DNA of 64,000 nucleotides from Kineosporia mesophila (GCF_021129235.1 NZ_JAJOMA010000008.1:1-64000), one strand, 5' to 3'; shown: positions 8,503-38,979, numbered from the stretch's first letter. The notes: generated by a model not told the origin, from the sequence alone. A program made the numbers and translations.

Positions 8503-8514
8503 GGCGGCTCAATC

Positions 8515-14452: not shown

Positions 14453-14479
14453 AGCCGTCGCGCCACTAACATTCCGTGA

Positions 14480-14506
14480 GGGGAGGCTGGGTGAACCAGC
14501 CTCCCC
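14480..14506. terminator. Bidirectional hairpin terminator
   Basis: A perfect 11-bp stem (GGGGAGGCTGG / CCAGCCTCCCC) around GTGAA, located between the convergent polymerase gene (end 14452) and the leftward gene ending at 14515. It also marks the point where base composition changes to the higher GC of the rest of the window. Confidence 0.8.
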
Positions 14507-14514
14507 GGCAGGTG

Positions 14515-22169: not shown

Positions 22170-22754
22170 ATGGGCATTGAGGCCAGCGCTGACATCGACG
22201 ATTTGGCCGTGATCGGAAAGGGCTCATCGGTATGGCATCTCGCGCAGATCCGGGAGAATGCCGTGCTCGGTGAGCAGTGCGTGATCGGTCGCGGGGCTTA
22301 CGTGGGGCCTGGGGTGATCCTGGGAAATCGGTGCAAGATTCAGAATTATGCACTGGTGTACGAGCCGGCCGTTGTTGAGGACGGTGTTTTCATCGGTCCG
22401 TCGGTTGTTCTCACCAATGACCAGTATCCGCGCGCGGTCACTCCCACGGGTGAGATCAAGTCCGGTGACGACTGGGAAGCGGTGGCGGTGACGGTGCGGG
22501 AGGGGGCCGCGATCGGTGCCCGATCGGTCTGCGTGGCCCCGGTGACGATCGGTCGCTGGGCCCTGGTGGCCGCCGGTTCCGTGGTGACCCGGGACGTGCC
22601 CGATCACGCGCTGGTCGCCGGTGTTCCGGCCCGTCGGATCGGGTGGGTCGGCCGGGCCGGCCGGCGCCTCGAGCAGCAGGAAGGCCGATGGGTCTGCCCC
22701 GTCACCGGAGACGCCTTCACCGAGGTGGGGGAGCGCCTGCAAAGTGTGAGCTGA
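22170..22754 (+). CDS. Sugar N-acetyltransferase, left-handed beta-helix (WbpD/WlbB-like)
   Basis: A 194-residue hexapeptide-repeat acyltransferase with many [LIV]Gxxxx turns: IGKGSSVWHLAQIRENAVLG, CVIGRGAYVGPGVILGNRCK, then GVFIGPSVVLTNDQYPRA and GAAIGARSVCVAPVTIG. The NDQYPRA loop and VWHLAQIRE opening resemble acetyl-CoA-dependent enzymes that N-acetylate amino groups of UDP- or dTDP-linked sugars (WbpD, WlbB, FdtC). The aminotransferases at 34628-36888 and the oxidoreductase at 31425 would supply such a substrate. It is cytosolic and probably trimeric, as the family is. The ATG at 22170 has no strong ribosome site. Confidence 0.85.
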   Translation: MGIEASADIDDLAVIGKGSSVWHLAQIRENAVLGEQCVIGRGAYVGPGVILGNRCKIQNYALVYEPAVVEDGVFIGPSVVLTNDQYPRAVTPTGEIKSGDDWEAVAVTVREGAAIGARSVCVAPVTIGRWALVAAGSVVTRDVPDHALVAGVPARRIGWVGRAGRRLEQQEGRWVCPVTGDAFTEVGERLQSVS

Positions 22755-22780: not shown

Positions 22781-24049
22781 ATGTACACGACACTTCGCGA
22801 GATCCTGCCGTCCGGAAGGGCGATCACCGACGAGGAGCGGGGGGCCGGCCGGCGGCGGGTGTCCCGGATCGTGGTCACCCTCGGGGTGGTCAGCTTCTTC
22901 ACCGACCTCTCCTCGGAGATGGTGCTCGCGGTGCTCCCGATGTATCTGACCCTCGAACTGGGGCTCACCGCCATGCAGTACGGGCTCGTCGACGGTGTTT
23001 ACACGGGCATCACCGCGGTCGTCCGGATCGCGGGAGGGCTCCTGGCCGACGTCACGCGGAGGCCGAAGCGGGTTGCTCTGGTGGGGTACGGGGTCTCCTG
23101 CGTCACCAAGCTGCTGTTCCTGCCGGCGGGTGGATTCGCCGCCGTCACCGGACTGGTCGCGCTCGATCGCAGCGGCAAAGGACTGAGAACCGCGCCTCGG
23201 GACGCGATGATCGCCAATTCGGCCGAGACCCAGGACCTCGGGCGCGCTTTTGGCGTTCACCGGGCCATGGACACGGCCGGGGCGCTGGGTGGTCCGCTGA
23301 TTGCCTTCGGTGTTCTAGCCATGCTCGTGCACGGGTATTCGTTCATTTTCGTGCTGAGCTTCTCGCTGGCTGCGATCGGTGTGGCCGTGCTGGCGTTGTT
23401 CGTTCCGGAGCGGCGCGTGCTGGACGTGCGATCGACCGGTTCGTCACGGGCACGGCGTACGCTGATCGAGGCGGGCTCCCTGGCGGCCGATCGCCGCTAT
23501 CGTCGTGTTCTGGCCGCCGGAGGACTGCTGTCGCTCGCCACCGTCAGCGACGGGTTCCTCTACCTGTCGATCGAGCGGCGGGTCGATCTGGATCCGGCTG
23601 CCTTTCCTCTGCTCTACCTCGGAACCGCCGTTTCCTACTTGGTGTTCGCGATTCCCGTCGGTCGGATCGCCGACCGGGTCGGACGCCGGCAAGTTTTCGT
23701 CGGAGGGCATGTTCTGGCTGTCGCCGCATACCTGGTGCTCCTGTTCGCGGCTCCGGGCCCGGCCTTGCTCGTGGCGGTGCTGCTGCTGGTAGGCCTCTAC
23801 TACGCGGCCACCGACGGCGTACTGGCAGCGCTCACGGCCGGACTCGTACCGGCCGATCTGCGCGGTACCGGGATCGCCGGGGCCCAGACCGCGACGGCCG
23901 TGGGCGCCCTGCTGTCCGCCGCACTGTTCGGCTGGCTCTGGGGGGCTTTCGGAGAGCCCTCGGCTGTCGCCGGATTCGCCGTCGGTCTCGTCGCCGCCAT
24001 CGGGACGGCCACCGTCCTGCTGCGGGGCGTCGTCGCCCCGGGGCGCTGA
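22781..24049 (+). CDS. MFS transporter
   Basis: A 422-residue 12-helix major-facilitator protein. The first cytoplasmic loop reads YGLVDGVYTGITAVVRIAGGLLADVTRRPKRV (a GxxAD-x-RRPKR-type signature), followed by LDRSGKGLRTAPRDAMIANS. The LDRxGKGxRTAPRDA motif occurs in a subgroup of actinomycete MFS proteins of unknown substrate. It ends at 24049 with its stop overlapping the start of the next gene, so the two are a unit. Its location inside a glycan locus suggests export, but the substrate cannot be inferred. Confidence 0.88.
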   Translation: MYTTLREILPSGRAITDEERGAGRRRVSRIVVTLGVVSFFTDLSSEMVLAVLPMYLTLELGLTAMQYGLVDGVYTGITAVVRIAGGLLADVTRRPKRVALVGYGVSCVTKLLFLPAGGFAAVTGLVALDRSGKGLRTAPRDAMIANSAETQDLGRAFGVHRAMDTAGALGGPLIAFGVLAMLVHGYSFIFVLSFSLAAIGVAVLALFVPERRVLDVRSTGSSRARRTLIEAGSLAADRRYRRVLAAGGLLSLATVSDGFLYLSIERRVDLDPAAFPLLYLGTAVSYLVFAIPVGRIADRVGRRQVFVGGHVLAVAAYLVLLFAAPGPALLVAVLLLVGLYYAATDGVLAALTAGLVPADLRGTGIAGAQTATAVGALLSAALFGWLWGAFGEPSAVAGFAVGLVAAIGTATVLLRGVVAPGR

Positions 24050-25086
24050 TGCGCCGCAGAGCCAGGATGATCGGTCTCGCCGTGGTGGTGCTCGCGGCCG
24101 CCGGGCTGAGTGCCGTCTCGCTGACGAAAGCGGTCGAGACCGAGCACGAGTCGCGCAGACCGACCCGGATGTCGGCGCTGGACAGAGGACTTGACCTGGG
24201 GAAGGTTCTGGACCGGCCCCACATCGTGTTCCGCAGTACGTCACCCGGCCCGACCTATGGTCTTCTGGCGGCGGTTCCGCTCGGCCGTCCCACCGGAAAA
24301 CGATCGGTCTCGTCCCTGTCGTGCGACCGGGTGTACGCCTCCGCCACGACCGGGATCTGTCTCTCGGCAAACCGGGGAGCGGTCACGACCTACCGGGCCC
24401 AACTGCTCAGTGGGCGGCTGGTTCCTCGGCTGACCGTGCCGATCTCGGGCATTCCCAGCCGGGTCCGGATGTCGTCCGACGGATCCCTGGGCGCGATCAC
24501 CACGTTCGTCAGCGGGCACAGCTACGCCTCGCTTGCCTTCTCCACCGAGACGACGGTGCTGGAGACGGCCGGTGCGCACCCGATCGAGGATCTGGAGAAG
24601 ACCTTCCGGACAACGGTGGACGGGCGGGTGGTCACCGCGAGCGACCTGAACATCTGGGGCGTGACCTTCGGGCCGGGCCCGCGTCCCCGGACGTTCTACG
24701 CCACCGCGGCCACCGGCGGATCGACCTGGCTGGTCCGGGGAGACCTGGAACGGCGCACCCTCACGTCGGTCGGTCGCGATGCGGAGTGCCCGTCCCTGTC
24801 GCCGGACGGAACCACCCTGGTGTACAAGAAGCGGAACGGATCGCCCCGGCGCTGGCGTTACCACGTGCTCGACCTGACCGACGGATCCGAACGGGCGCTG
24901 CCCGAAACACGCAGTATCGACGATCAGGTCGCCTGGCTCGACAACGACCACGTCCTTTACGGGGTCCCTCGCGGTGACTCGGGAGAGGTCGACGTGTGGA
25001 AAGCGTCCGTGCGGAATAGCGGGTCACCGAAACTGCTGATCCGTAATGCCTCGTCCCCCGCTGTGGTTCGTGCAGCTGCGCACTGA
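24049..25086 (+). CDS. Membrane-anchored TolB-like beta-propeller protein
   Basis: A 345-residue protein. Residues 1-25 are an uncleaved-looking membrane anchor or signal (MRRRARMIGLAVVVLAAAGLSAVS). The rest is extracytoplasmic with propeller-type repeats: SRVRMSSDGSLGAITTFV, CPSLSPDGTTLVYKK and VAWLDNDHVLYGV, i.e. S-P-DG-x-x-L(V/A)Y strands of WD40/PD40 (TolB) domains. The ATGA overlap with the MFS gene suggests it works with that transporter outside the membrane, perhaps as a binding or assembly partner. This is inferred from position only. Confidence 0.8.
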   Translation: MRRRARMIGLAVVVLAAAGLSAVSLTKAVETEHESRRPTRMSALDRGLDLGKVLDRPHIVFRSTSPGPTYGLLAAVPLGRPTGKRSVSSLSCDRVYASATTGICLSANRGAVTTYRAQLLSGRLVPRLTVPISGIPSRVRMSSDGSLGAITTFVSGHSYASLAFSTETTVLETAGAHPIEDLEKTFRTTVDGRVVTASDLNIWGVTFGPGPRPRTFYATAATGGSTWLVRGDLERRTLTSVGRDAECPSLSPDGTTLVYKKRNGSPRRWRYHVLDLTDGSERALPETRSIDDQVAWLDNDHVLYGVPRGDSGEVDVWKASVRNSGSPKLLIRNASSPAVVRAAAH

Positions 25087-25307
25087 GGGCCAGTATGTGA
25101 CTGAGTGGCTGAACGATACAGGAGATAAGCATTCGGCCCGGAAATAAACTCCGCTGTTGGCATGAGCTTTCGAGATCGGGCCGCACGCGGGCATCGAATG
25201 ATTGATTGTTTGAGGGCAGGGGCTTTGATGTACGTCGTGCGGAAAGAGAAGAGCTGAGTGTGAACCTCGCGGAATAGAATCGTTTTCGACTGTTGGGGGG
25301 AACGTCG

Positions 25308-26594
25308 ATGCGTCGCCAGAGTGTTGTCATCATTGTTCAGAACCTGCCCGTGCCGCTCGACCGCAGAGTGTGGATGGAGTGCCAGGCCCTGCGCGACGCG
25401 CAGTACGAGGTCTCGGTCATCTGTCCGAAGAGCCCGGGCGACAGAAGCTTTGAAATGCTTGACGGGGTGGCTCTGTATAAGTACCGGGCGGCCCCGGCTA
25501 CCACCGGGCTGCTGAGCTATATCCTCGAGTTCGTGTACTGCTGGCTGCGCACGGCGATGATCTCGGTCAAGGTGTACCGGTGTCACCGATTCACGGTGCT
25601 GCAGGCGTGCAATCCGCCGGACACGTACTGGCTGCTCGGCCGGTTGTGGCGTCTGTTCGGCGTGATCTACGTCTTCGATCACCACGATCTGAACCCGGAA
25701 CTCTTCCGTTCCCGGTTCGGCGACCCGACGTCGGTCTCGGGCCGGATCCAGCTGGCGATCCTCTATTGGCTGGAGTGGATGACCTACCGGACCGCCCGGC
25801 ACGTGATCACCACGAACGAGTCGTACCGGCGGATTGCGCTGGAGCGCAGCAAACTCGGTTCCGCCGACGTCACCGTGGTGCGCAGTGGGCCAGACACCTC
25901 GATCATGCGGCCCGTTCCGGAGAGCACCGAATTGCGCTGCGGTGCTGATCATCTACTGGCCTACATCGGCATCATGGGCCCGCAGGACAACGTCGACGTC
26001 CTGCTCCAGGTCATGCGTGTGCTGACGGTCGACCTGGGCCGCCGAGACGTGCACCTGGTGCTGATGGGTTTCGGTGACTGTCTGGACGGCCTGAAGGTGA
26101 AGGCCGTCGAACTCGGTGTCGCGGGGGTGGTCACCTTCACCGGCCGGGCCGATCTGAGGATGATCGCGGACTATCTCTCCACGGCGGACATCGGCGTGTC
26201 ACCCGACCTGAAGACGCCTCTGAACGACATCTCCACGCACAACAAGACGATGGAGTACATGGCCTTCGGCCTGCCCATCGTCTCCTTCGACCTGGCCGAG
26301 TCACGGATCTCCGCCGGGGCGGGCTCGCTGTACGTGCCCTCGGGTGACGTCCGGGCCTTCGCCGAAGCGGTCGACGAACTGCTGAACGATGAGGAACGCC
26401 GGCTCCAGATGGGCCGGTACTCCCGTGAGCGCTGCGTCAGCGAGATGGACTGGCAGCCCCAGGCGCGCAAGTACGTCCGGGTCTTCGACCGGCTGACCGG
26501 TCACCTGCCCCGCCTTCGGTTGCAGGTCGGCGAGCGCCACCTGGACATCACTCCCCAGGCGGCCTCGACCGTCCTGAGCAGAGAGGCCGAATGA
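25308..26594 (+). CDS. Glycosyltransferase, GT4 type
   Basis: A 428-residue GT-B enzyme. It starts SVVIIVQNLPVPLDRRVW, a characteristic GT4 N-terminus in exopolysaccharide loci, and later has DHHDLNPELFRSRFG, YIGIMGPQDNVDVLLQVM, VHLVLMGFGDCLDGLK and the donor loop ISTHNKTMEYMAFGLPIV. The ATG at 25308 follows a G-rich ribosome site (GGGGGGAACG). A TTG 15 bp upstream is possible. Its stop overlaps the start of the giant secreted protein (ATGATGA), so they are co-expressed. Confidence 0.92.
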   Translation: MRRQSVVIIVQNLPVPLDRRVWMECQALRDAQYEVSVICPKSPGDRSFEMLDGVALYKYRAAPATTGLLSYILEFVYCWLRTAMISVKVYRCHRFTVLQACNPPDTYWLLGRLWRLFGVIYVFDHHDLNPELFRSRFGDPTSVSGRIQLAILYWLEWMTYRTARHVITTNESYRRIALERSKLGSADVTVVRSGPDTSIMRPVPESTELRCGADHLLAYIGIMGPQDNVDVLLQVMRVLTVDLGRRDVHLVLMGFGDCLDGLKVKAVELGVAGVVTFTGRADLRMIADYLSTADIGVSPDLKTPLNDISTHNKTMEYMAFGLPIVSFDLAESRISAGAGSLYVPSGDVRAFAEAVDELLNDEERRLQMGRYSRERCVSEMDWQPQARKYVRVFDRLTGHLPRLRLQVGERHLDITPQAASTVLSREAE

Positions 26595-29500
26595 TGAGAC
26601 GGTTGCTGAGAGGCCTGCCTGCGGTCGTGCTGGTCATCGGTCTGGCCGGTGTGGTCATGCCGACTCTGACCGCGGCCGCCGGCTCGGCCGCAGATGCCTG
26701 CGCGGCGGGCAACGCCATCGTCTGCGAGAACGCGAAGCCGGGAAATCCCTCGTCGCAGTGGGAGATCGTCGGTAAAGGCTCGAGCACGGTCGAGGGCTTC
26801 GCCACGGACATCTCGGTGGACGCCGGGACAACGGTGAAGTTCAAGGTGCACGCCGAGTCCGACTACACCATGAAGATCTACCGGATGGGTTACTACGGCG
26901 GCGCCGGGGCCCGGGAGATCGCCACGCTCACTGCCGACGCGGCGGTCTCCAAGGCCAATCAGCCCAGCTCGTGCGCCAACAACAGTGACAGCACCGGCCT
27001 GGTCGACTGCGGCAACTGGGGGGTCTCGGCCAGCTGGGCCGTTCCGGCCACGGCCGTGTCGGGAATCTATTTCGCCCGACTCGAGCGCATCTCCACGGGA
27101 GACGACAACCACATCCCGTTCATCGTCCGTCATGACAGCAGCCACAGCGACGTGCTGTTCCAGACGTCGGACACCACCTGGCAGGCCTACAACAACTGGG
27201 GCGGCAACAGCCTCTACGCGGGCGCGCCCGCCGGCCGGGCCTACAAGGTCAGCTACAACCGTCCTTTCAACACGCGCTCCACCCCGAACGGGCGTGACTT
27301 CGTCTGGGGCAGCGAGTACCCGATGGTGCGCTTCCTGGAGGCCAACGGCTACGACGTCAGCTACTCCAGCGGGGTCGACACCGATCGCCTGGGATCATTG
27401 CTGACCAACCACAAGACGTTCCTGTCGGTCGGACACGACGAGTACTGGTCGGGAGACCAGCGGGCCAACGTCGAGCGGGCCCGCGATGCGGGGGTGAACC
27501 TGGCCTTCTTCAGCGGTAACGAGGTCTATTGGAAGACGCGCTACGAACCGGGTGTGGACGCCTCGAAGACCCCCTACCGCACGCTGGTCACCTACAAGTC
27601 GACTCACGACGACTCACAGACCGATCCCACCGGCGTCTGGACCGGCACCTGGCGCGACCCGCGATTCAGCCCACCGGCCGACGGTGGCCGTCCGGAGAAC
27701 GCCCTGACCGGCACCATGACCACGGCGATCGAGGGCACCCGGGCGATCAAGGTTCCCGCCGACGAGGGCAAGCTACGTCTGTGGCGCAACACGTCGGTGG
27801 CATCACTGGGCGCCGGGCAGACTGCGACGCTTCCGGCCGGGACCTTGGGCTACGAGTGGAACTCCGACGTGGACAACGGTTTCCGGCCGCCGGGAGCGGT
27901 GCGTCTCTCGGACTCGACCTACGACGTGGAACAGCGTCTCACCGACTACGGCAGCCAGACCGCACCGGGGACGGCCCGGCACCACCTGATGCTGTACCGG
28001 GCCGGCAGCGGAGCCCTGGTCTTCGGGGCGGGCACGGTGCAGTGGTCGTGGGGGCTGGACGAGCATCACGACGGTGACGGTGAGGCCCCCGACCAGCGGA
28101 TGCGCCAGGCCACCGTGAACCTGCTGGCCGACATGAGCGCCCAGCCCGGCAGCCTGCAGAGCGACCTGACCCGGGCCACGAAGTCGGCCGACACCACCCC
28201 GGCGTCCGCCGTGATCACGTCACCGGCGGCCGGGGCCGCGCTCTCCAGCGGCACCCCGATCACCGTTACCGGTACCGCGACGGACGTCGGCGGCCGGGTC
28301 GGTGGGGTGGAGGTCTCGCTGGACGGCGGGCACACCTGGCACTCCGCCGCCGGCCGCGAGTCGTGGTCGTACGACGGTATCGTCGGCCGGGTCGGGGCGA
28401 CCACCGTCCAGGCCCGCGCTTCCGACGACAGCGGGAACCTGCAGAGCTCCCCGGCCCAGAGGCCGGTTTCGGTCAGCTGCCCGTGCGCGATGTTCGACGG
28501 TGAGAAGCCGGCGATCGAGTCCGGTTCCGACCGGAGGGCTCTCGAGCTGGGGGTGCGGTTCCGCCCCGAGCTGGACGGCTACATCACCGGCGTCCGGTTC
28601 TGGAAGGGGGCGGGGAACACCGGCGTGCACACCGGATCGCTGTGGACCTTCAACGGCACCCGGCGCGCCACCGGGACGTTCGTGTCCGAGACCGACAGCG
28701 GCTGGCAGACCCTGGTCTTCCCGGTGCCGGTCGCGGTGACCGCGGGCACCGAGTACGTCGCCTCCTACTTCGCACCGAACGGTGGGTACGCCAGCACCGC
28801 GTCGTACTTCCTGGGTAAGGACGCCGGCGCCTACCCCCTGACGGCCCCGCGGGCCACCACCGCCTCGCAGAACGGCGTCTTTCTGGCCGGCTCGCCGGGT
28901 TTCCCGACCTCGGGCTACCGCGGCGTCAGCTACTGGGTCTCGCCGGTCTTCGACATCGTGAAGCCCGCCGACACGGCCGCACCGACGGTGACCCAGCAAC
29001 GTCCGGTGGACACCGCCAGCAGTGTGGCCATGACCGTGAAGCCCGAGATCACCTTCGACGAGCCGATCGCCGACGGCAGCCTGACGCTCCTGCTGAGGTC
29101 CGACACCGGCCTGGTGCCCGGCACGACCACCCTCAGCGACGACCGGCAGAAGGCCGTGTTCAGCCCGTCGGCCCCGCTGATCAGCGGCACGACCTACACT
29201 CTCTCGTCCACCGGGGGCACCGACGACGCCGGGAACGCCTTCACCGGCCTGACCAGCACCTTCCGCACTGCCCAGGTGACCACGCCCGGGGTCTGCCCGT
29301 GCAGCGTCTGGTGGGACACCGACGTCCCCACCACCAGAGCCACGGATGACGACCAGGACGTCGAGCTCGGGGTCCGGTTCACGGCGGGAAAGGCCGGTTA
29401 CGTCACCGGGGTGCGGTTTTACAAGGGTGCCACGAACACAGGTACCCACACCGGCACCCTGTGGTCGCCCAGCGGCACGCAGCTCGCCCACGCGACCTTC

Positions 29501-31390
29501 ACGAACGAGAGCGCGGCGGGCTGGCAGGAGGTCAGGTTCGACACCAAGGTGCCGGTCACCGCCGGCCAGGTCTACACCGCGTCGTACCACACGGCGGGTC
29601 ATTACGCCCTGACGGCGGGTGGCCTGAACTCCGATGTGGTCAATGATCCTCTGACCGCGGTCTCCTCGGCCGGCAGCGGGGGCAACGGCGTCTACCGGTA
29701 CGGCGCCCACGCCCTGCCGGACAACAACGGCCGGGGTGCCGACTACGGCGTCGACGTGGTCTTCGAGAACGCCGCCGACATCACGGCCCCCGCGGTCACC
29801 GAGCACACCCCGCCGCCGGGCACCGCCAACGTCCGCACCGGCACGGTGCCCCGGGTCACCTTCTCGGAGAAAGTCGTCTCCGGGCTGACCGTGACCCTGA
29901 AGGCCGACTCCACCGCGGTCGGTGTCACCGCCGGCCTGGACACCGCGGGTCTGGTCGCCACCCTCACCCCGGCCTCGCCCCTGGAGGCGGGCAGGACGTA
30001 CACCGTCACGGTCAGCGGCGCCAAGGATGCGGCCGGGAACGTGATGACCCCGTACAAGTGGAGTTTCAGCACATCGGGCACGGAGACCTGCCCGTGCGGG
30101 CTGTACCCGGGCGATCAGGTGCCGTCCACGGTCGACTCCCGCGACGCATCGCCGCTGGAGCTCGGTGTGCGATTCACGCCGTCCGTGAACGGCTACGTGA
30201 ACGGAGTGCGGTTCTACAAGGCGGCCGCGAACACGGGCACCCACGTGGGTTCCCTGTGGACGTCGGGCGGGGCCCTGATGACCTCGGCCACGTTCGGCGC
30301 GGAGAGTGATTCGGGCTGGCAGCAGGTGTCGTTCGGGTTCCCGGTCGCGGTGCAGGCCGGTACCACCTACATCGTCTCGTACACCGCCCCCGAGGGCCGC
30401 TACTCGGCCGATCCGGGCCAGTTCCGCTCGGCCTGGCAGAACGGGCCGCTCACCGCGCCGGCCGACCGCGCGGGCGTGAACAACGGTCTGTACTCGACCC
30501 TTCCGGGACGGTTCCCGACGCGTTCGTACAACGCGACGGGCTACGCGGTCGACCCGGTGTTCACACCCAGCGCGGGCGGCGACTCGTCACCGCCGGTGCT
30601 GCTGTCCACCGACCCGGTCGACGGTGCGGTGAGTGTGCCGGTGAACCGTTCTCTGACAGCCTGGTTCGACGAACCTCAGGCGGCCGGTTCGGTGCGGGCG
30701 GACATCACCGGTCCGGGTTCTTCCGTCGTGGCCTCCACCGTGTCGGTGGGTGCCGACAACTCGGTGACCGTGACACCGTCCTCTGCTCTGCAACCGGACA
30801 CCCGCTACACGATCCGGATCAACGGCTCCGACCTCGCCGGAAACGCCCTGCGGAACCCCGTGACCTGGTCGTACCGTACGGCGAAGGCGGCGGGAACGGC
30901 CTGCCCCTGCTCACTCTGGAGCGACGGCACGGAACCGGCGGTGGCGAGTGCGGACGAACGCCGGGCGGTCGAGCTGGGCGTGAAGTTCACCCCGGAGCAG
31001 GACGGGCGGATCACCGGAGTGCGGTTCTACAAGGGACCGGACAACGTCGGGACGCACGTGGGTACGCTGTGGAGTGCGACGGGTGCGGAACTGGCACGGG
31101 CCACGTTCGGTCCGGAGTCCTCCGCGGGCTGGCAGGAAGTGACGTTCGCCCAGCCGGTCGACGTCACGGCGGGCCGGACCTACGTGGCCGGCTATCACAC
31201 CGATACCGGTGGATATGCCTACACGCTCAACGGTTTCGCGGGTATGGGGGTCGCCCGGGGGCCGCTGGGGGCGCCGATCGGGACGACCACGGATCCGAAC
31301 GGTGTGTACGCGTACGGGGCGCTCGCCTTCCCGTCGTCGGGCCGGTCGACGAACTACTGGGTGGACGTGCTGTTCCAGCCGAAGCCCTGA
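26591..31390 (+). CDS. Giant secreted protein: dimethylformamidase-like domain plus four DUF4082 modules
   Basis: A 1599-residue exported protein. Residues 1-30 are a Sec signal peptide (LPAVVLVIGLAGVVMPTL). Residues about 60-520 match the large (beta) subunit-like fold of N,N-dimethylformamidase, including HDEYWSGDQRANVERA near 282 and FFSGNEVYWKTRYE shortly after. An Ig-like domain (about 535-625) follows. Then come four DUF4082 modules, each opening with CPC (near 630, 903, 1167, 1438), with Big_5-type Ig domains between them (TFDEPIADGSLTLL, TFSEKVVSGLTVTL, WFDEPQAAGSVRAD). DUF4082 modules are thought to be extracellular and possibly glycan-associated. Coupled to a GT4 gene. Enzymatic activity is unproven and amidase activity should not be assumed. 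Confidence 0.88.
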   Translation: MMRRLLRGLPAVVLVIGLAGVVMPTLTAAAGSAADACAAGNAIVCENAKPGNPSSQWEIVGKGSSTVEGFATDISVDAGTTVKFKVHAESDYTMKIYRMGYYGGAGAREIATLTADAAVSKANQPSSCANNSDSTGLVDCGNWGVSASWAVPATAVSGIYFARLERISTGDDNHIPFIVRHDSSHSDVLFQTSDTTWQAYNNWGGNSLYAGAPAGRAYKVSYNRPFNTRSTPNGRDFVWGSEYPMVRFLEANGYDVSYSSGVDTDRLGSLLTNHKTFLSVGHDEYWSGDQRANVERARDAGVNLAFFSGNEVYWKTRYEPGVDASKTPYRTLVTYKSTHDDSQTDPTGVWTGTWRDPRFSPPADGGRPENALTGTMTTAIEGTRAIKVPADEGKLRLWRNTSVASLGAGQTATLPAGTLGYEWNSDVDNGFRPPGAVRLSDSTYDVEQRLTDYGSQTAPGTARHHLMLYRAGSGALVFGAGTVQWSWGLDEHHDGDGEAPDQRMRQATVNLLADMSAQPGSLQSDLTRATKSADTTPASAVITSPAAGAALSSGTPITVTGTATDVGGRVGGVEVSLDGGHTWHSAAGRESWSYDGIVGRVGATTVQARASDDSGNLQSSPAQRPVSVSCPCAMFDGEKPAIESGSDRRALELGVRFRPELDGYITGVRFWKGAGNTGVHTGSLWTFNGTRRATGTFVSETDSGWQTLVFPVPVAVTAGTEYVASYFAPNGGYASTASYFLGKDAGAYPLTAPRATTASQNGVFLAGSPGFPTSGYRGVSYWVSPVFDIVKPADTAAPTVTQQRPVDTASSVAMTVKPEITFDEPIADGSLTLLLRSDTGLVPGTTTLSDDRQKAVFSPSAPLISGTTYTLSSTGGTDDAGNAFTGLTSTFRTAQVTTPGVCPCSVWWDTDVPTTRATDDDQDVELGVRFTAGKAGYVTGVRFYKGATNTGTHTGTLWSPSGTQLAHATFTNESAAGWQEVRFDTKVPVTAGQVYTASYHTAGHYALTAGGLNSDVVNDPLTAVSSAGSGGNGVYRYGAHALPDNNGRGADYGVDVVFENAADITAPAVTEHTPPPGTANVRTGTVPRVTFSEKVVSGLTVTLKADSTAVGVTAGLDTAGLVATLTPASPLEAGRTYTVTVSGAKDAAGNVMTPYKWSFSTSGTETCPCGLYPGDQVPSTVDSRDASPLELGVRFTPSVNGYVNGVRFYKAAANTGTHVGSLWTSGGALMTSATFGAESDSGWQQVSFGFPVAVQAGTTYIVSYTAPEGRYSADPGQFRSAWQNGPLTAPADRAGVNNGLYSTLPGRFPTRSYNATGYAVDPVFTPSAGGDSSPPVLLSTDPVDGAVSVPVNRSLTAWFDEPQAAGSVRADITGPGSSVVASTVSVGADNSVTVTPSSALQPDTRYTIRINGSDLAGNALRNPVTWSYRTAKAAGTACPCSLWSDGTEPAVASADERRAVELGVKFTPEQDGRITGVRFYKGPDNVGTHVGTLWSATGAELARATFGPESSAGWQEVTFAQPVDVTAGRTYVAGYHTDTGGYAYTLNGFAGMGVARGPLGAPIGTTTDPNGVYAYGALAFPSSGRSTNYWVDVLFQPKP
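28480..31380 (+). repeat. Four tandem DUF4082-coding repeats
   Basis: Within the giant gene, four units of about 230 codons begin at about 28480, 29297, 30090 and 30902 with the CPC motif, and each contains ELGVRF or ELGVKF, G(V/I)RFY/WKG..NTG.H.GSLW and SGWQ..(V/L)F. The units are diverged rather than identical at DNA level, so they reflect old duplication. Confidence 0.85.
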
Positions 31391-31424: not shown

Positions 31425-32534
31425 ATGACGACAGACGTGGGCACGGACGATCTCGCGGTCGCGGTGGACGGGCGGGACCGCCCGATCGGGCTCGCCGTGA
31501 TCGGGGCCGGTTACTGGGGACCGAATCTGGCTCGCAACGCCCATCAGTCGGACGCCCTGCGGCTGATGGCCGTGGTCGACCGGGATCCGGCGGCGGCGCG
31601 GAAACTGGCCTACCGGTATGCCGGGGTCATCGCCTCGGCCGATCTGGAGGGCGTGCTGGCCGATCCCGGGATCGACGCCGTGGCGGTGGCCACGCCGGCC
31701 GCGAGTCACCACGCGGTCGCCTCGGCGGCGATCGCGGCCGGTAAGCACGTGCTGGTCGAGAAGCCGCTCGCGGCGACCTACGCCGAGGGGCTGAGCCTGG
31801 TCGAGGCCGCCGAACGGCGGGGTGTGGTGCTGATGTGCGACCACACCTACTGCTACACGCCGGTGGTGCAGCGTATCCGGGAGATCACGCACGCGGGGGA
31901 GCTGGGTGACATCCAGTTCGTCGACTCGGTACGGATCAACCTCGGGCTCGTGCAGCCCGACGTGGATGTGCTCTGGGACCTCGCGCCGCACGACCTGGCG
32001 ATCCTGGATCACGTTCTGCCGCAGAGGTTAAGGCCTCTGGCGGTGAGCGCGCAGGCGGCCGACCCGATCGGTGCCGGGCAGGCCTGCGTGGGTTACCTGA
32101 CCCTGCACCTGCCGGGCGGGGCGATCGCCCACGCGCACGTGAACTGGCTGAGCCCGGTGAAAGTGCGCACCACCCTGATCGGTGGATCACGGCGCACTCT
32201 GGTCTGGGACGATCTCAACCCCTCGCAGCGGCTCTCGGTCTACGACCGGGGGGTCGACCTGACCGACACGACCGACACGACCGGATCGGCCGACGCTGAC
32301 GACCGGCACCGGCGTCAGGTGTCCTACCGGTCAGGAGACATGACCGCTCCGGCTCTACCGGAACGTGAGGCTCTGCAAGGGGTGATGACGGAGTTCTCCG
32401 AGTGCATCCGCACCGGCCGGGCCCCGGTCACCGACGGCCGGTCCGGATTGCGTCTGCTCGACATCCTCGAGGCGGCCACCGCCAGCCTGAACACCGGTGG
32501 TACCGCGGTGTCGCTGCGGGAGGGTGGACGATGA
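31425..32534 (+). CDS. Gfo/Idh/MocA-family sugar dehydrogenase
   Basis: A 369-residue NAD(P)-dependent oxidoreductase with the Rossmann opening GLAVIGAGYWGPNLARN, the dinucleotide-domain end AVATPAASHHAVASAAIAAG and the conserved catalytic-site strand KHVLVEKPLA. LMCDHTYCYTPVVQRIRE and NLGLVQPDVDVLWDLAPHDL follow. The last pattern (DVLWDLAPHDLAIL) is typical of WbpB-like enzymes that oxidise C3 of UDP-N-acetylglucosaminuronate and related nucleotide sugars. The ATG at 31425 is preceded by GGGGAAA, 34 bp after the giant gene. Its stop overlaps the next start (ATGA). It probably feeds the DegT aminotransferases downstream. Confidence 0.9.
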   Translation: MTTDVGTDDLAVAVDGRDRPIGLAVIGAGYWGPNLARNAHQSDALRLMAVVDRDPAAARKLAYRYAGVIASADLEGVLADPGIDAVAVATPAASHHAVASAAIAAGKHVLVEKPLAATYAEGLSLVEAAERRGVVLMCDHTYCYTPVVQRIREITHAGELGDIQFVDSVRINLGLVQPDVDVLWDLAPHDLAILDHVLPQRLRPLAVSAQAADPIGAGQACVGYLTLHLPGGAIAHAHVNWLSPVKVRTTLIGGSRRTLVWDDLNPSQRLSVYDRGVDLTDTTDTTGSADADDRHRRQVSYRSGDMTAPALPEREALQGVMTEFSECIRTGRAPVTDGRSGLRLLDILEAATASLNTGGTAVSLREGGR

Positions 32535-33496
32535 GCGGGGTGGTGATTCCCGGGACCGACTTCCTGGTCACCGGAGGAGCGGGCACGATCGGGTCGACCG
32601 TCGTGGACCAGCTGCTGGCGGCCGGGTGCGGCCGGGTGTTCGTGCTGGACAGCCTGGTGCGGGGCCGGGAGGCGAACCTGGGCCGGGCTCTGGCCGACGA
32701 TCGGGTCGAGCTGGTGCAGGGCGACATCCGTGACGTGGAACTGGTCGGCCGGCTCACCAGGCAGGTGAACGGCGTATTCCACCTCGCGGCCCTGCGGATC
32801 ACTCAGTGCGCGGCCGAACCCCGGCTGGCCAACGAGGTTCTCGTCGAAGGCACGTTCAACGTGATCGAGGCGGCGGCCGGCGCCGGGGTGCGCAAGGTGG
32901 TGGCGTCGTCGTCGGCGTCGGTCTACGGCTTGGCCGAGACGTTCCCCACCGCGGAGAACCACCATCCGTGGGCGAACGACACGCTCTACGGCGCGGCCAA
33001 GGTCTACAACGAGGGCCTGCTGCGGAGTTTCCACGCCATGACGGGGCTGGACTACGTCGTGCTGCGGTATTTCAACGTGTACGGGCCGCGGATGGACGTG
33101 CACGGTCTCTACACCGAGGTACTGATCCGGTGGATGGAGCGGATCGTGGAGGGCCAGGCCCCGCTGATCTTCGGTGACGGGCAGCAGACGATGGACTTCG
33201 TCTACACGGAGGACATCGCCCGTGCCAATCTGCTGGCCATGTCGGGGACGGTGACCGACCGGGCGTTCAACGTCGCGAGTGGCCAGGAGGTCAGCCTGCG
33301 CCGGCTGGCCGAGATGCTGCTGTCGGTGATGGGCAGCGGTCTGGACGTCGAGCACGGCCCGGAACGGGCGGTCAACGGTGTCGTGCGGCGCCTGGCCGAC
33401 ACCCGGGCGGCCCGTGGCGAGCTGGGTTTCGAGACCGCGGTGGACCTGGAAGAGGGGCTGCGCCGGCTGGTGGAGTGGTGGCGTGCCCAGCGATGA
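32531..33496 (+). CDS. NAD-dependent nucleotide-sugar epimerase/dehydratase (SDR)
   Basis: A 321-residue extended SDR enzyme. Motifs are LVTGGAGTIGSTVVDQL at the N-terminus, GVFHLAALRITQCAAEP, ASSSASVYGLAE and the catalytic YGAAKVYNE, then RYFNVYGPRMDVHG. It most resembles UDP-glucose/UDP-GlcNAc 4-epimerases. The substrate cannot be fixed by eye. It is coupled to the oxidoreductase by a 4-bp overlap, and the next gene starts inside its last 14 bp. Confidence 0.9.
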   Translation: MSGVVIPGTDFLVTGGAGTIGSTVVDQLLAAGCGRVFVLDSLVRGREANLGRALADDRVELVQGDIRDVELVGRLTRQVNGVFHLAALRITQCAAEPRLANEVLVEGTFNVIEAAAGAGVRKVVASSSASVYGLAETFPTAENHHPWANDTLYGAAKVYNEGLLRSFHAMTGLDYVVLRYFNVYGPRMDVHGLYTEVLIRWMERIVEGQAPLIFGDGQQTMDFVYTEDIARANLLAMSGTVTDRAFNVASGQEVSLRRLAEMLLSVMGSGLDVEHGPERAVNGVVRRLADTRAARGELGFETAVDLEEGLRRLVEWWRAQR

Positions 33497-34631
33497 GCGG
33501 CCGCTGGTGATGATCAGCGCGGGCACCTACTGGTACGGCCCGCGGATGCTCGATCATCACCTGGCCCATGAACTCGCCCGTTACGCCGATGTCGTCTACG
33601 TCGAGCCGGGGACCTCGGTCGTGAGCCGCTGGCGGGGCTCGACGGCGGCCCGGGCCGCGTGTGGTCCTGAGGTCGAGAGCGTGGAGCCGGGGGTGCAGGT
33701 GCTGCGTCCGCGGGTGAACCCGATGATGGAGCGTCGTCTGGGAAAACCTCTGGCTCTCTGGCTGATCCGGCGGTCCATGCGCCGGGCCGGCCGGCGTCTG
33801 GGCCGCCCGGTGCACGCGCTGGTCCTGATGTCGCTGAACCCACTGTTCGGTTCGGTGGGGGAGCGGTACCGGGTGTTCTACGCAGGTGACGACCTGGCCG
33901 CCGGCGCCGGTCTGATGGGTATCAGTGATCCGGGCCTGGCCGGCCGGGCGGTGACGCTGCCCCGGCAGGCGGACATCGTGGTCGCGGTCAGCCCGCCGCT
34001 GGTGGACAGTCTGCGGTCGGCCGGGGTGGAGGCCCTGCTGATCCCCAACGGTGTCGACGTTCCGCACTTCTCCCGCACGGTGAAGGCCAGTCCCGACCCG
34101 GCGGCGGTCGAGCTGGGTCCCCGGCGTGTGGGTTTCGCCGGTCATCTGGGCGACCGTATCGATCCTGACCTGATCGCGGCGGTCGCCGACCGCGACTGCA
34201 CCGTGCTGCTGGTGGGGCCCCGTCAGCGGGGAGCCGGTGACTGGCTGGAGGAGGTGCTTCGCCGGCCGAACGTGCACTGGCTGGGGTTGCGGTCGTACGC
34301 CGACCTGCCGTCGGTACTGGCGGCAGCCGACGTGTGGATGCTGCCCTACGACGACAGTGCCTTCAACCGGGCCAGCTTCCCTCTGAAACTGCTGGAGTAC
34401 CTGGCCGCCGGACGCCGCGTGGTGGCCACCGACCTGCCCGCCGTGCGCTGGCTCGACACCGGCCTGATCGACGTGGCCCACGGGGCGGCCGGTTTCGCCG
34501 ATGCCGTCACCGGAACGCTCGGCCGGCCGCTGACCGCGGCCGAGTCCGCCGACCGGATCGGATTCGCCTCCTCCCACGGATGGACCGAACGGGTGCGCCC
34601 GCTCGCCGAGCAGATGGGACTGAGCACATGA
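33483..34631 (+). CDS. Glycosyltransferase (TuaH-like GT-B)
   Basis: A 382-residue protein starting at GTG 33483 (VPSDERPLVMISAGTYWYG), overlapping the epimerase by 14 bp. The N-terminal half has LAHELARYADVVYVEPGTS and YRVFYAGDDLAAGAG. The donor domain has RVGFAGHLGDRIDPDLIAA, VHWLGLRSYADLPSVLAA and NRASFPLKLLEYLAAGRRVV. This arrangement resembles TuaH-type glycosyltransferases of teichuronic acid and exopolysaccharide loci. The donor is unknown. Confidence 0.85.
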   Translation: MPSDERPLVMISAGTYWYGPRMLDHHLAHELARYADVVYVEPGTSVVSRWRGSTAARAACGPEVESVEPGVQVLRPRVNPMMERRLGKPLALWLIRRSMRRAGRRLGRPVHALVLMSLNPLFGSVGERYRVFYAGDDLAAGAGLMGISDPGLAGRAVTLPRQADIVVAVSPPLVDSLRSAGVEALLIPNGVDVPHFSRTVKASPDPAAVELGPRRVGFAGHLGDRIDPDLIAAVADRDCTVLLVGPRQRGAGDWLEEVLRRPNVHWLGLRSYADLPSVLAAADVWMLPYDDSAFNRASFPLKLLEYLAAGRRVVATDLPAVRWLDTGLIDVAHGAAGFADAVTGTLGRPLTAAESADRIGFASSHGWTERVRPLAEQMGLST

Positions 34632-35761
34632 AGCAGCTGGACAGGATTCCGGTCATGCGACCGTGGTTCGGGGAGGCCGAGGCCGAGGCGGTCCGCGACG
34701 CCGTGCTCTCCGGCTGGGTGGCCCAGGGGCCGCGGGTGGCGGCCTTCGAGAAGGCACTGGCCGGGCGGCTGGAGGCCCGCGCCGGGGTGGCCCTCTCCAA
34801 CTGCACCACCGCGCTGCACCTCGGCCTGGTGCTGGCCGGGGTGGGCCCGGGTGACGAGGTGGTGGTGCCCTCGCTGTCGTTCATCGCGACGGCCAACGTG
34901 GTCAGGCACCAGCAGGCGGTGCCGGTGTTCGCCGACGTCGACCTGCACACCCAGAACCTCACGGTGGAGACGGTCGAGCGGGCGCTGACACCGCGCACCC
35001 GGGCGGTGATCGCCGTGCACCAGGCCGGGACGCCCCTCGACCTGGACCCGCTGTCCGACCTGTGCCGGGACCGGGGCCTGGTGCTGATCGAAGACGCCGC
35101 CTGCGCCATCGGCTCGCAGTACCGGGGCCGCCCGGTCGGGTCGCAGGCCCGGTTCGCGGCCTTCTCGTTCCACCCCCGCAAGCTGCTCACCACGGGGGAG
35201 GGCGGCATGCTGCTCACCGACGACCCGGAACTGGCGGCCCGGGCCCGGCGGCTGCGCGAGCACGGCATGGACCTCAGCGCCGCCGAGCGACACCAGGGCG
35301 AGGAGCTGGTGCTGGAGTCGTACACCGAGGTCGGGTTCAACTACCGGATGACCGACGTGCAGGCGGCCCTCGGGCTGGTCCAGCTCGAGCGGCTCGACGC
35401 CATGGTGGCCCGACGACGGGAACTGGCCGCCCGCTACCAGAAGGCACTCCCGGGCCTGCTCACGGCCGCGGACACCGCTGACGGAACCACCAACTACCAG
35501 TCGTTCTGGGTGCTCCTGCCACCGGACTGGCCGCGCAGCCGCAACGACATGCTCCGGTTGCTGCTCGAGCACGGCATCAGTGGCCGCCGCGGCATCATGG
35601 CGGCCCACACCGAGCCCGCCTACGCCGGGCATCCGCACGCCCCGCTGCCGGTGACCGAGCGACTGGCCGCCGACTCGCTGATCCTGCCGATCTACCACGA
35701 GCTCTCCGAGGCCGACCAGGACCGGATCATCGACGTTTTCACGACCGGAGGACGAGCATGA
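34628..35761 (+). CDS. DegT/DnrJ/EryC1/StrS-family aminotransferase (copy 1)
   Basis: A 377-residue PLP-dependent sugar aminotransferase. Present are GWVAQGPRVAAFEKALA, GVALSNCTTALHLGLVLAG, VLIEDAACAIGSQYRG and the PLP-lysine segment FSFHPRKLLTTGEGG. It should use glutamate to aminate a keto-sugar nucleotide. The ATG overlaps the upstream GT stop and the stop overlaps the next aminotransferase (ATGA). It resembles enzymes pairing with NeuD/PglD-type acetyltransferases such as the one at 38335, but this pairing is inferred. Confidence 0.93.
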   Translation: MKQLDRIPVMRPWFGEAEAEAVRDAVLSGWVAQGPRVAAFEKALAGRLEARAGVALSNCTTALHLGLVLAGVGPGDEVVVPSLSFIATANVVRHQQAVPVFADVDLHTQNLTVETVERALTPRTRAVIAVHQAGTPLDLDPLSDLCRDRGLVLIEDAACAIGSQYRGRPVGSQARFAAFSFHPRKLLTTGEGGMLLTDDPELAARARRLREHGMDLSAAERHQGEELVLESYTEVGFNYRMTDVQAALGLVQLERLDAMVARRRELAARYQKALPGLLTAADTADGTTNYQSFWVLLPPDWPRSRNDMLRLLLEHGISGRRGIMAAHTEPAYAGHPHAPLPVTERLAADSLILPIYHELSEADQDRIIDVFTTGGRA

Positions 35762-36888
35762 CCACTGACCTGACAGCAGATGCCCCGAGTCTAGTCGAGC
35801 CGGTCCCGCTGACCGATCTGGCCCTGATGCACGCCCCGATCGCGGCCGAGGTCGAGCAGGGGCTCGCCGGGGTGATGGCCGCGGGCGCCTTCGTCGGCGG
35901 TCCGGCGGTCGGCCGGTTCGAGGACGCCTTCGCCGCCTACAGCGGGCGGGCTCACTGCGTAGGCGTCGCCAACGGTACCGACGCGCTCGAGATGGCTCTG
36001 CGGGCTTGCGATGTCACCGCCGGCGACGAGGTGATCATCCCGGCGAACACGTTCATCGCGACCGCCGAGGCCGTCGTCCGGGCCGGAGGTGTGCCGGTCC
36101 CCGTCGACGTCACCGCCGGGGCACTGCTCATCGATCCCGAGCGAGCCGCCGCGGCGATCACCCCGCGGACCCGGGTGCTCCTGCCGGTTCATCTGTTCGG
36201 CCAGCAGGCGCCCATGGCACCGTTGCGGGATCTGGCGGCCGAACGCGGGCTGGTCCTGATCGAAGACGCCGCCCAGGCCCAGGGATCCACCCAGAACGGC
36301 CAGGGCATCGGGACGGGGGCCGTCGCGGCCGCCACCAGCTTCTACCCGGGCAAGAACCTCGGCGCCTACGGCGACGCGGGGGCGGTCGTCTGCGACGATC
36401 CGGCCGTCGCGGCCCGCCTGCGGCGGATCGGGAACCACGGCTGTGAGCGCAAGTACGTGCACTCCGAGTTCGGGTTCACCTCCCGCCTGGACACGTTCCA
36501 GGCCGTCGTCCTCGAGGCAAAGTTGCGGCACCTGGACGGGTGGAACGCCCAGAGGGCCCGGGCGGCTGCGCTCTACGACGAGTTGCTGGCGGACAGCGAG
36601 GTGGCCGTTCCCGTCACGGCTCCCGGAAACCGGCACGTATGGCACCTGTACGTGGTGCGGGTGCGTCGCCGCGAGAGCGTGCTGAGGGCCTTGAACGCGG
36701 CGGGGATCGGCGCGGCGGTGCACTACCCGATCCCCGTGCACCGGCAGCCGGCCTTCGCGGGGACGGCCCGTTCACCGTTGCCGGTCACCGAGCGGGCGAG
36801 CGAGGAGATCCTCTCGCTGCCGATGTTCCCGGGGATCACGCCGGACCAGCAGGAGCGGGTCGTGCGATCCCTGGCGAGGGCATTGTGA
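35758..36888 (+). CDS. DegT/DnrJ/EryC1/StrS-family aminotransferase (copy 2)
   Basis: A 376-residue PLP aminotransferase, distinct from its upstream neighbour: CVGVANGTDALEMALRAC, IIPANTFIATAEAVVRAGG, LIEDAAQAQGSTQNG, and the PLP-lysine in SFYPGKNLGAYGDAG. The FYPGKNLGAYGDAG motif is typical of WbpE/WlbC/FdtB-like 3-aminotransferases, which act with WbpB-like dehydrogenases and WbpD-like acetyltransferases. All three kinds are in this window (31425, 35758, 22170). It is coupled to copy 1 by a 4-bp overlap. Confidence 0.93.
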   Translation: MTTDLTADAPSLVEPVPLTDLALMHAPIAAEVEQGLAGVMAAGAFVGGPAVGRFEDAFAAYSGRAHCVGVANGTDALEMALRACDVTAGDEVIIPANTFIATAEAVVRAGGVPVPVDVTAGALLIDPERAAAAITPRTRVLLPVHLFGQQAPMAPLRDLAAERGLVLIEDAAQAQGSTQNGQGIGTGAVAAATSFYPGKNLGAYGDAGAVVCDDPAVAARLRRIGNHGCERKYVHSEFGFTSRLDTFQAVVLEAKLRHLDGWNAQRARAAALYDELLADSEVAVPVTAPGNRHVWHLYVVRVRRRESVLRALNAAGIGAAVHYPIPVHRQPAFAGTARSPLPVTERASEEILSLPMFPGITPDQQERVVRSLARAL

Positions 36889-36898
36889 GGGGCGGGCG

Positions 36899-38338
36899 AT
36901 GACGTCGTCCGTAGCCCCGGAGACGGCGCCCGAGACCGGTCTGGGTGGACGGGTTCTCAGTGCCCTGCGGTGGAGCTTTGTGGCGACCGTGGTGATCCGG
37001 TTCAGCAGCCTCGGGGTCAGCGTGGCGATGGCCCGTCTCCTGGGGCCTTCGGAATTCGGGGTGTATGCCGTCGCTTTCGTGGTGCTGGCGGCGGTGCTGA
37101 GCCTGAACGAGCTGGGGGTCTCGGTCGCGCTCGTGCGTTACCAGGGTGACGAGCGCGTGGTGGTGCCGACCGTGGCGACGCTGAGCATGCTCGGCAGCCT
37201 GGTCTGCTACGCCGTGATCTTCTCGGTGGCGCCCGGTGTCGCGGCCAGTTTCGGGGCTCCGGCGGCCGTCGGGCCGATCCGGCTCATCGGCCTGTGCGTC
37301 ATCGTCGACGGGCTGGCGGCGGTTCCGGTCGCGCTGCTGCAGCGGGAGTTCCGGCAGAAGCGGCGCGCGGTCGCCGACATCACCAATTTTGGTGTCGGAT
37401 CGGTGATCTCGATCGGTCTGGCAGTGGCCGGGATGGGCGCTGTGAGCCTGGCCGCGGGCCGGATCGTGGGCAGCGTCGCCTCGGTGGTGCTGCTGGTCTC
37501 GTCGGTGCGGGGGAGATGGCGGTTCGGCTGGGACCGGAACCAGGCCGGGGGGCTGCTGGCGATCGGCCTGCCGCTGGCCGGTTCCAGCCTGGTGGTGTTC
37601 GGCATCCTCAGCCTCGACCAGTTCATCGTCGGTCACCTGGGAGGTGCGACGGTGCTGGGCATCTACGTGCTCGCCTTCAACCTATCGAGCTGGCCGGTCA
37701 CCGCGCTCTCGCAGCCGGTGCGCGCGGTCACGCTGCCGCTGTTCGCCCGGCTGGCCGACGATCCGGCGCGGTTCTCCCGCACGGCCGTCGACTGTCTGGG
37801 TGCCCTGCTGGCCGTGACCGTCCCGGTCGCGACCGGCCTGGGCGCGTCCGCGTACCCCCTGGTGCGGGTGGTGTACGGGCCGGACTGGGTGTCCTCGTCG
37901 CCGGTGCTGGTGTGGCTGGCCGTGCTGGGCGGCTGCCGGGTTCTGCTGGAGCTGTTCTACGACCTCCTGGTGGCGCTGGGAGCCACCCGTCAGCTGTTCG
38001 GCCTGCAGGTCGCCTGGTTGGTGGTGCTGGCGGTGGGTCTGCCGGTGGGCCAGCACCTCGGCGGCCCGGTGGGCGTAGCCGTGGCCCACAGCCTGGTCTG
38101 CCTGTTCGTCATCGTTCCGCTGAACGTCCGGGCGATGGTGATGCGCACGGGGACCCCCGTGCGGGCCCTGGTACTGGCCTCGCTGGGGCCCGCGGCCGGC
38201 GGCTGCGTGATCGTGCTGACGGCGGTTGCTCTCCAGCGCAGCGTTCCGGATCTGTTCGCGCTGGCCGGTACCGGCCTGGTCGCCGGGCTGTTCGCGCTGC
38301 GGGGGGTGCTCCGACTGCGGGGCCGGGTCGCACGATGA
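36899..38338 (+). CDS. Wzx-type polysaccharide flippase (copy 2)
   Basis: A 479-residue MOP-superfamily membrane protein with about 14 helices. It begins RVLSALRWSFVATVVIRFSS and SVAMARLLGPSEFGVYAVAF, the usual R-x-LGPxxFG start of the family, with a conserved DQFIVGHLGGATVLGIY loop in the second half. It should translocate lipid-linked repeat units. The start at 36899 follows GAGGGGCG. It is clearly different from the flippase at 9366, implying a second assembly system. Its stop overlaps the following acetyltransferase gene. Confidence 0.92.
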   Translation: MTSSVAPETAPETGLGGRVLSALRWSFVATVVIRFSSLGVSVAMARLLGPSEFGVYAVAFVVLAAVLSLNELGVSVALVRYQGDERVVVPTVATLSMLGSLVCYAVIFSVAPGVAASFGAPAAVGPIRLIGLCVIVDGLAAVPVALLQREFRQKRRAVADITNFGVGSVISIGLAVAGMGAVSLAAGRIVGSVASVVLLVSSVRGRWRFGWDRNQAGGLLAIGLPLAGSSLVVFGILSLDQFIVGHLGGATVLGIYVLAFNLSSWPVTALSQPVRAVTLPLFARLADDPARFSRTAVDCLGALLAVTVPVATGLGASAYPLVRVVYGPDWVSSSPVLVWLAVLGGCRVLLELFYDLLVALGATRQLFGLQVAWLVVLAVGLPVGQHLGGPVGVAVAHSLVCLFVIVPLNVRAMVMRTGTPVRALVLASLGPAAGGCVIVLTAVALQRSVPDLFALAGTGLVAGLFALRGVLRLRGRVAR

Positions 38339-38979
38339 GCACACAGGACGTGGTTCTGCTCGGTTCCGGAGGGCTGGGCCGGGAAACGGTCCAGATCACC
38401 CGGAGCCCGGGATCACGCGCCCGGGTGATCGGTTTCCTGGACGACGACCCGCGCCTGCGCGATCGGACGGTTGCCGGGTTACCCGTGCTCGGGCCGACAG
38501 GCGATGCCGCCGGACTGGGTGGCGACGTGGCGGTCGTGGCCACGGTGGCCAGTGCCGCCGACCCGCAGCGCCGGTCGCGGCTGGTCGGACGGCTGGGACT
38601 TCCTTCCGGCCGATACACCCGGATCGTGCATCCAGCAGCGTCCTTGGCTCCGGACACGGAGCTGGGGGTGGGAACCGTGGTGATGGCCGGGGTGATCGCC
38701 ACCAGCGATGTGCGGGTGGGTCGGCATGTCGTCCTGATGCCCGGGTGCGTCCTGACCCATGACGTCAAGGTCGGCGATGGCGCCACCCTGGCCGCGGGGG
38801 TGCTCCTGGCCGGTGGCGTGATTGTGGAACCGGATGCCTACCTGGGGTCCGGGGTAAGGGTGCGCGAGGGGGTCAGGATCGGGGCGGGCGCCGTGATCGG
38901 CATGGGATCTGTTGTACTGCATGATATTCCGGCGGCGCAGGTCTGGGTGGGTGTTCCGGCGAGGCCGCTCGAACGATAG
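38335..38979 (+). CDS. NeuD/PglD-type sugar acetyltransferase
   Basis: A 214-residue protein with an N-terminal Rossmann-like nucleotide-sugar domain (VVLLGSGGLGRETVQI, VIGFLDDDPRLRD) and a C-terminal left-handed beta-helix (VHPAASLAPDTELGVGTVVM, GRHVVLMPGCVLTHDVKVG, IGAGAVIGMGSVV). This two-part form is typical of NeuD/PglD enzymes that transfer acetyl from acetyl-CoA to an amino sugar nucleotide. The aminotransferases just upstream are the obvious source of its substrate. It is the last intact gene of the rightward operon. Confidence 0.92.
   Translation: MSTQDVVLLGSGGLGRETVQITRSPGSRARVIGFLDDDPRLRDRTVAGLPVLGPTGDAAGLGGDVAVVATVASAADPQRRSRLVGRLGLPSGRYTRIVHPAASLAPDTELGVGTVVMAGVIATSDVRVGRHVVLMPGCVLTHDVKVGDGATLAAGVLLAGGVIVEPDAYLGSGVRVREGVRIGAGAVIGMGSVVLHDIPAAQVWVGVPARPLER

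Follow-up and report, generated by a model that had tools for sequence, protein, structure and literature searches.

The window analyzed here is a stretch of 64,000 nucleotides from Kineosporia mesophila (NZ_JAJOMA010000008.1:1-64000), in which a polysaccharide locus includes an open reading frame (ORF) of 1599 codons, whose product carries a domain related to dimethylformamidase (DMFase). The ORF was confirmed at 26591-31390 on the plus strand, the position given by an earlier reading of this DNA (hereafter, the original prediction). Its ATG and the stop codon of an upstream GT4 glycosyltransferase gene share an ATGA overlap, in agreement with the coupling of these two genes proposed for this window; an alternative ATG at 26594 makes the precise start ambiguous. 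The protein and its parts are as follows.

26591..31390, plus strand: secreted protein of 1599 residues, with the order DMFA2_C, Ig, DUF4082, Big_5, DUF4082, Big_5, DUF4082, Big_5, DUF4082
26591..26695, plus strand: signal sequence, residues ~1-35, read by eye
26867..28069, plus strand: DMFA2_C catalytic domain (PF20254), residues 93-493
28175..28480, plus strand: Ig-like domain, resembling the C-terminal domain of sulfite oxidase (Z 14.6)
28472..28948, plus strand: DUF4082 unit 1
28976..29269, plus strand: Big_5 unit 1
29288..29761, plus strand: DUF4082 unit 2
29783..30073, plus strand: Big_5 unit 2
30083..30559, plus strand: DUF4082 unit 3
30587..30880, plus strand: Big_5 unit 3, with a CopC-like Ig fold (Z 14.9)
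30896..31372, plus strand: DUF4082 unit 4, a PHR-like beta sandwich in the model

The match to DMFA2_C was strong (342.6 bits against a cut-off of 27; 4.8e-102), and the HDEYWS and GNEVYW blocks were both found. Pfam also recognized an Ig domain of the Big_7/Mo-co_dimer-like type (residues ~536-592), four DUF4082 units (2.4e-184) and three Big_5 units (5e-47). According to local hidden Markov models (HMMs), DUF4082 (PF13313) and Big_5 alternate, with a CPC motif near the start of each DUF4082; these four DUF4082 units, at 158-169 bits each, are the only ones in the genome. The original prediction had read the same set of elements, comprising the signal peptide (to our eye a Sec-type sequence at residues 1-35), the DMFase-like domain with its two blocks, the Ig-like domain and the alternating CPC-started repeats, and all of them were borne out. 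A chance reading can be dismissed, because almost all members of a set of 79 relatives have this architecture. No C-terminal anchor was seen in the protein.

Two other assignments were considered. Matches to Mo-co_dimer and sulfite dehydrogenases were confined to the Ig domain (residues ~529-630), and a molybdenum enzyme was accordingly rejected. The NodB-homology domain of CE4 polysaccharide deacetylases (PF01522) gave no HMM match in the 1599-residue protein. As for DUF4082, its model is a PHR-like beta sandwich (Z 11.6 to 3no8 and 11.2 to 3gbw); as modeled, this likeness is one of common fold, with no function implied.

Fold and active site of the catalytic domain

When a profile built from nine relatives was searched against the PDB, it retrieved N-acetyl-(R)-beta-phenylalanine acylase (8i5a, 2.3e-39) and the large subunit of DMFase (6lvb, 8e-29). 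A single-sequence phmmer search of the PDB missed DMFase and matched the Ig domains alone, mostly to sulfite oxidases. Structure prediction, which had been suggested as a check, agreed with the profile: an AlphaFold2 model of residues 41-795 (pLDDT 84, pTM 0.84) matched the acylase with Z 31.4 and DMFase with Z 30.1, at a root-mean-square deviation of ~3 Å over ~415 residues, the next-best structural match of the catalytic domain being at Z 11.3. In this predicted model, a ThuA-like alpha/beta domain III is joined to an Ig-like domain I. Solved structures yielded only two enzymes with the iron-amidase fold, each of them named for a small amide.

The iron of DMFase is bound by Y399, Y440 and E521, while H519 is essential and N547 is drawn beside the iron site in the legend of the active-site figure (PMC7686228). 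We mapped these residues through a MAFFT local-pair alignment that included both PDB sequences, where the 6lvd sequence is a Y440A mutant and hence shows Ala in the Y440 column. All five (Y399, Y440, H519, E521 and N547) have an identical counterpart in the window protein, namely Y200, Y209, H282, E284 and N310.

27188..27190, plus strand: Y200, equivalent of DMFase iron ligand Y399
27215..27217, plus strand: Y209, equivalent of DMFase iron ligand Y440
27434..27442, plus strand: H282-D283-E284, equivalents of DMFase H519 and iron ligand E521
27518..27520, plus strand: N310, equivalent of DMFase N547

Of the five assignments, that of Y209 is the most open to doubt, as the residue adjoins an alignment gap, yet the acylase has a Tyr in that column and Y209 is invariant.

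None of the five residues varied among 79 close relatives, a set that counts the window protein as a member. This set had been found with patterns including TWxAYN, and its ORFs were picked by HxEYW; because these AYN and HxEYW motifs were used in the selection, the invariance of Y200, H282 and E284 is in part a product of that selection, unlike that of Y209 and N310. A fair test was offered by 16 distant homologues (~30-39% identity), chosen by whole-domain similarity and blind to motifs: 14 kept all five residues, and the other two had lost Y200 and N310. The possible loss of the DMFase metal ligands, raised as a danger to the original prediction, was thus not seen in the window protein, where two Tyr and one Glu are kept, as are the catalytic His and the Asn of the active site. 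As judged from these alignments, a predicted active site of the iron-amidase type is well supported.

Paralogues of the host genus, confined to it in our sample, have lost the metal-ligand set together. Two further PF20254 proteins are encoded in the same genome, both without the HxE motif (L131, G000:C6:71000-90999; L132, G000:C59:273000-292999). A long copy has SRPS where DMFase has HPEY and a middle part that appears LamG-like by eye; the other paralogue is of a genus-wide type with GDSRYW replacing GHDEYW.

The polysaccharide locus and its recurrence

The neighboring genes of the window are listed below.

22170..22754, plus strand: hexapeptide N-acyltransferase, closest solved relative 3mqg
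22781..25086, plus strand: pair of a major facilitator superfamily (MFS) transporter and a PD40/WD40-like protein
25293..26594, plus strand: GT4 glycosyltransferase, in ATGA overlap with the start of the 1599-residue gene
31425..32534, plus strand: Gfo/Idh/MocA dehydrogenase, probable start ATG at 31425
32531..33496, plus strand: NAD-dependent epimerase/dehydratase
33378..34631, plus strand: second GT4 glycosyltransferase
34622..35761, plus strand: DegT-family sugar aminotransferase 1, TlmJ/perosamine-synthetase/ArnB-like
35758..36888, plus strand: DegT-family sugar aminotransferase 2, 2oga/QdtB/WbpE-like
36899..38338, plus strand: Wzx-type polysaccharide flippase
38335..38979, plus strand: NeuD/PglD-like sugar N-acyltransferase
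39228-39980: separate CE4-type gene

The entry 3mqg is listed as a lipopolysaccharide acetyltransferase and is presumably WlbB, which N-acetylates a 3-amino sugar. The NeuD/PglD-like gene, along with the hexapeptide and DegT genes, suggests a repeat unit with two N-acylated amino sugars. Elsewhere in the same polysaccharide region, two right-handed beta-helix proteins (43970-45007 and 45416-46600) are encoded beside GT4 genes. A second polysaccharide set lies upstream (7504-17946), with a sugar epimerase and flippase-like, GT4 and weak Wzy-like genes, and a product with a weak GH18 match and a CBM5/12 module, possibly a chitinase, is encoded at 52156-53412.

Homologues were sought in one genome per species, which gave at least 572 confirmed stretches. 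Counts of neighbors refer to the best 80 of these 572 and, as many loci end at contig edges, they are lower bounds; genes in the high-GC loci of relatives were called by codon-usage scoring. In the catalytic region the best 80 have 57-64% identity; they belong to Actinomycetota, Pseudomonadota, Cyanobacteriota, Chloroflexota and Acidobacteriota, and nearly all have the order DMFA2_C, Ig, DUF4082 in common. The most frequent neighbors were DegT2 and the epimerase (36 loci each), DegT1 (35), Gfo/Idh and the NeuD/PglD-like acyltransferase (32 each) and the hexapeptide acyltransferase (29), followed by Wzx (21), MFS and WD40 (15 each) and GT4a (7). N-acyltransferase genes of two kinds are repeatedly found next to the DMFA2_C gene, and amides are therefore expected on the glycan.

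At least three of the five module genes were present in 37 of 80 loci, and at least two of the window's polysaccharide gene types in 47, a level reached by none of 20 other 20-kb stretches, evenly spaced, from two genomes. Actinomycetota, Pseudomonadota and Cyanobacteriota all have loci with this module (Gfo/Idh, epimerase, two aminotransferases and N-acyltransferases). In a tree of the catalytic domain, module-bearing loci fell in both deep halves, with 14 label changes vs 26.6 after shuffling.

When 395 genomes of the class were scanned, 38 carried the DMFA2_C gene at E <= 1e-120, 38 carried the Gfo/Idh orthologue at E <= 1e-95, and 32 had both (Fisher p 5.4e-35, which overstates the significance, as genomes are not phylogenetically independent). 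The two genes share a contig and are within 25 kb of each other in 30 of these 32 co-carriers, usually at a distance of 3-7 kb. By a hand count, carriers belong to 17 genera for DMFA2_C and 20 for Gfo/Idh, with both genes in 16. A phylum sample gave the same pattern, albeit with small numbers. Gfo/Idh was the strongest co-occurring partner of those tested, the hexapeptide acyltransferase being more widely spread and less specific.

The proposal that homologues belong to glycan loci therefore stood in part: the tie to glycan-sugar genes is strong, closer than first supposed though to another partner, but 33 of the 80 loci have one polysaccharide gene type or none. GT4 and Wzx, which the original prediction had suggested surveying, are not constant neighbors; Gfo/Idh, epimerase, DegT and N-acyltransferase genes are commoner. 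With GT4 at 7 of 80 loci, coupling to GT4 was not accepted as a feature of the family at large.

At 15 of 80 loci the MFS and PD40/WD40-like pair was observed (the pair was seen near L069, L079, L084, L092, L093, L095, L097 and L099). As some of these 15 are Arthrobacter loci without the sugar module, the pair may represent a second functional partner. Some relatives differ in their domains. L055 and L037 have N-terminal WD40 propellers, and in L078:9851-17230 DMFA2_C and DUF4082 are fused to six fn3 repeats, a galactose/glyoxal-oxidase-like Kelch domain and a GO-like early-set domain. An unnamed domain starting with GPGGPxLVV adjoins DMFA2_C and DUF4082 in L024:6920-8779, L063:14810-17578 and L086:12590-15583; that of L024 gave no Pfam match.

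Possible function and alternatives

Because the site is intact and travels with genes for N-acylated sugars, amide trimming on an exported polysaccharide appears probable. More specifically, we favor a secreted amidase of the DMFase superfamily that acts on the polysaccharide of its own locus, to which we assign a probability of roughly 45%; the substrate, a predicted amide-bearing exported glycan, is one that we infer. In such an enzyme, Y200, Y209 and E284 would bind Fe3+, the iron would polarize the amide carbonyl, H282 would activate water, and N310 may assist in positioning the substrate. Attachment to the exported glycan or the cell surface could be provided by the DUF4082 and Big_5 domains, and the bond cut would be an N-acyl (acetamido or formamido) linkage on an amino sugar, leaving a free amine after export. 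It is a more tentative suggestion, on balance doubtful, that there are widespread secreted iron(III)-tyrosinate amidases, unrelated to CE4-type deacetylases and usually accompanied by their own nucleotide-sugar module, that remove N-acyl groups from the amino sugars of exopolysaccharides.

Several observations weigh against an amidase acting on the glycan of its locus. The characterized relatives act on small amides, and the DMFase large subunit, when purified without the small one, is inactive (PMC7686228). The stretch of the model that bears Y209 is of moderate confidence (block pLDDT ~60-74), and the selection of the 79 relatives and the shared ancestry of the class genomes detract from the invariance and the co-occurrence as described above. 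Furthermore, about 40% of the loci (33 of 80) show at most one polysaccharide gene type in the fetched flanks, with Arthrobacter, some Nocardioides and Azohydromonas among the examples poor in glycan genes.

These last loci, outside a glycan context, would suit a secreted scavenging acylase that cleaves N-acyl amino acids or small amides extracellularly for nutrients and sits in glycan loci for other reasons, as would the fact that the closest solved relative, 8i5a, is named as an acylase of N-acyl amino acids. Such a role is rather unlikely, however, in view of the co-occurrence with Gfo/Idh in 32 of 38 class genomes, of a linkage extending over three phyla, and of the long DUF4082/Big_5 arrays, which suggest a surface or polymer target. 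A scaffold that binds the surface or a glycan, retaining the fold alone, might be envisaged from the members that have lost the site (the genus paralogues with GDSRYW for GHDEYW and the larger same-genome copy with SRPS), but the five residues are kept in this protein, in its 79 relatives and in most distant homologues, and we consider a non-catalytic domain improbable. We give slightly less credence still to a transferase, whose iron site would make or exchange an amide and in this way anchor the polysaccharide to the cell surface or cross-link it there: a secreted, multidomain protein with no C-terminal anchor seen and a linkage to polymer loci is compatible with this, but DMFase is a hydrolase (PMC7686228) and the family offers no known acceptor or precedent for transfer.

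This branch of the iron-amidase fold is secreted and occurs in several phyla; with its site preserved and a closely linked partner gene, it makes glycan amide editing a testable proposal and offers a possible role for the uncharacterized DUF4082 domain. If true, it would imply a chemistry of glycan de-N-acylation distinct from that of CE4-type deacetylases. In the literature that we searched for DUF4082, for PF20254, and for DMFase in connection with exopolysaccharide, we found no described function, and no published test of amide trimming of exported polysaccharide by this type of protein.

Comparison with known systems

Proteins with DMFA2_C and DUF4082 in public genomes (PF20254, PF13313) have the same architecture; none was found with a described function. 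For the sugar module, the closest precedent is the Wbp/Wlb pathway to 2,3-diacetamido-2,3-dideoxyuronic acids, which employs a 6-dehydrogenase, a 3-dehydrogenase, a 3-aminotransferase, an N-acetyltransferase and a 2-epimerase (PMC10622841). Three of these five steps have candidate genes in the locus, as it contains a Gfo/Idh protein, a WbpE-like DegT protein and an acyltransferase nearest to 3mqg. In contrast to the Wbp/Wlb systems, a UDP-sugar 6-dehydrogenase and a 2-epimerase were not recognized in the locus, although the 6-dehydrogenase family is encoded elsewhere in the genome, and the Gfo/Idh protein is distant from solved WlbA-type entries. We did not accept a plain Wbp diacetamido-uronate locus, since the 6-dehydrogenase is not local and Gfo/Idh is only distantly WlbA-like.

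For the catalytic domain, the best solved match, by both profile and fold, is the N-acetyl-(R)-beta-phenylalanine acylase (8i5a, 8huy), with which the Y, Y, H, E and N positions are common. The acylase, named for an N-acetyl amino acid, has ~775 residues and an extra inserted domain, and is without the DUF4082/Big_5 repeats. The large subunit of Paracoccus DMFase (6lvb; PMC7686228) agrees with the window protein in the fold of its domains I and III (Z 30.1, ~420 residues), in the iron ligands, and in H519 and N547. Unlike in DMFase, the pentraxin-like domain II is absent from the window protein (a gap of at least ~200 residues vs 6lvd and 8i5a in the profile alignment), and no gene resembling the small (alpha) subunit was recognized among the neighboring ORFs, the part of the genome that was examined for it; because of these two differences, the pocket would have to be shaped differently from that of DMFase. 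The window protein, 18% identical to DMFase, further differs from it in being secreted, in its appended Ig, DUF4082 and Big_5 domains, and in being encoded within a polysaccharide locus.

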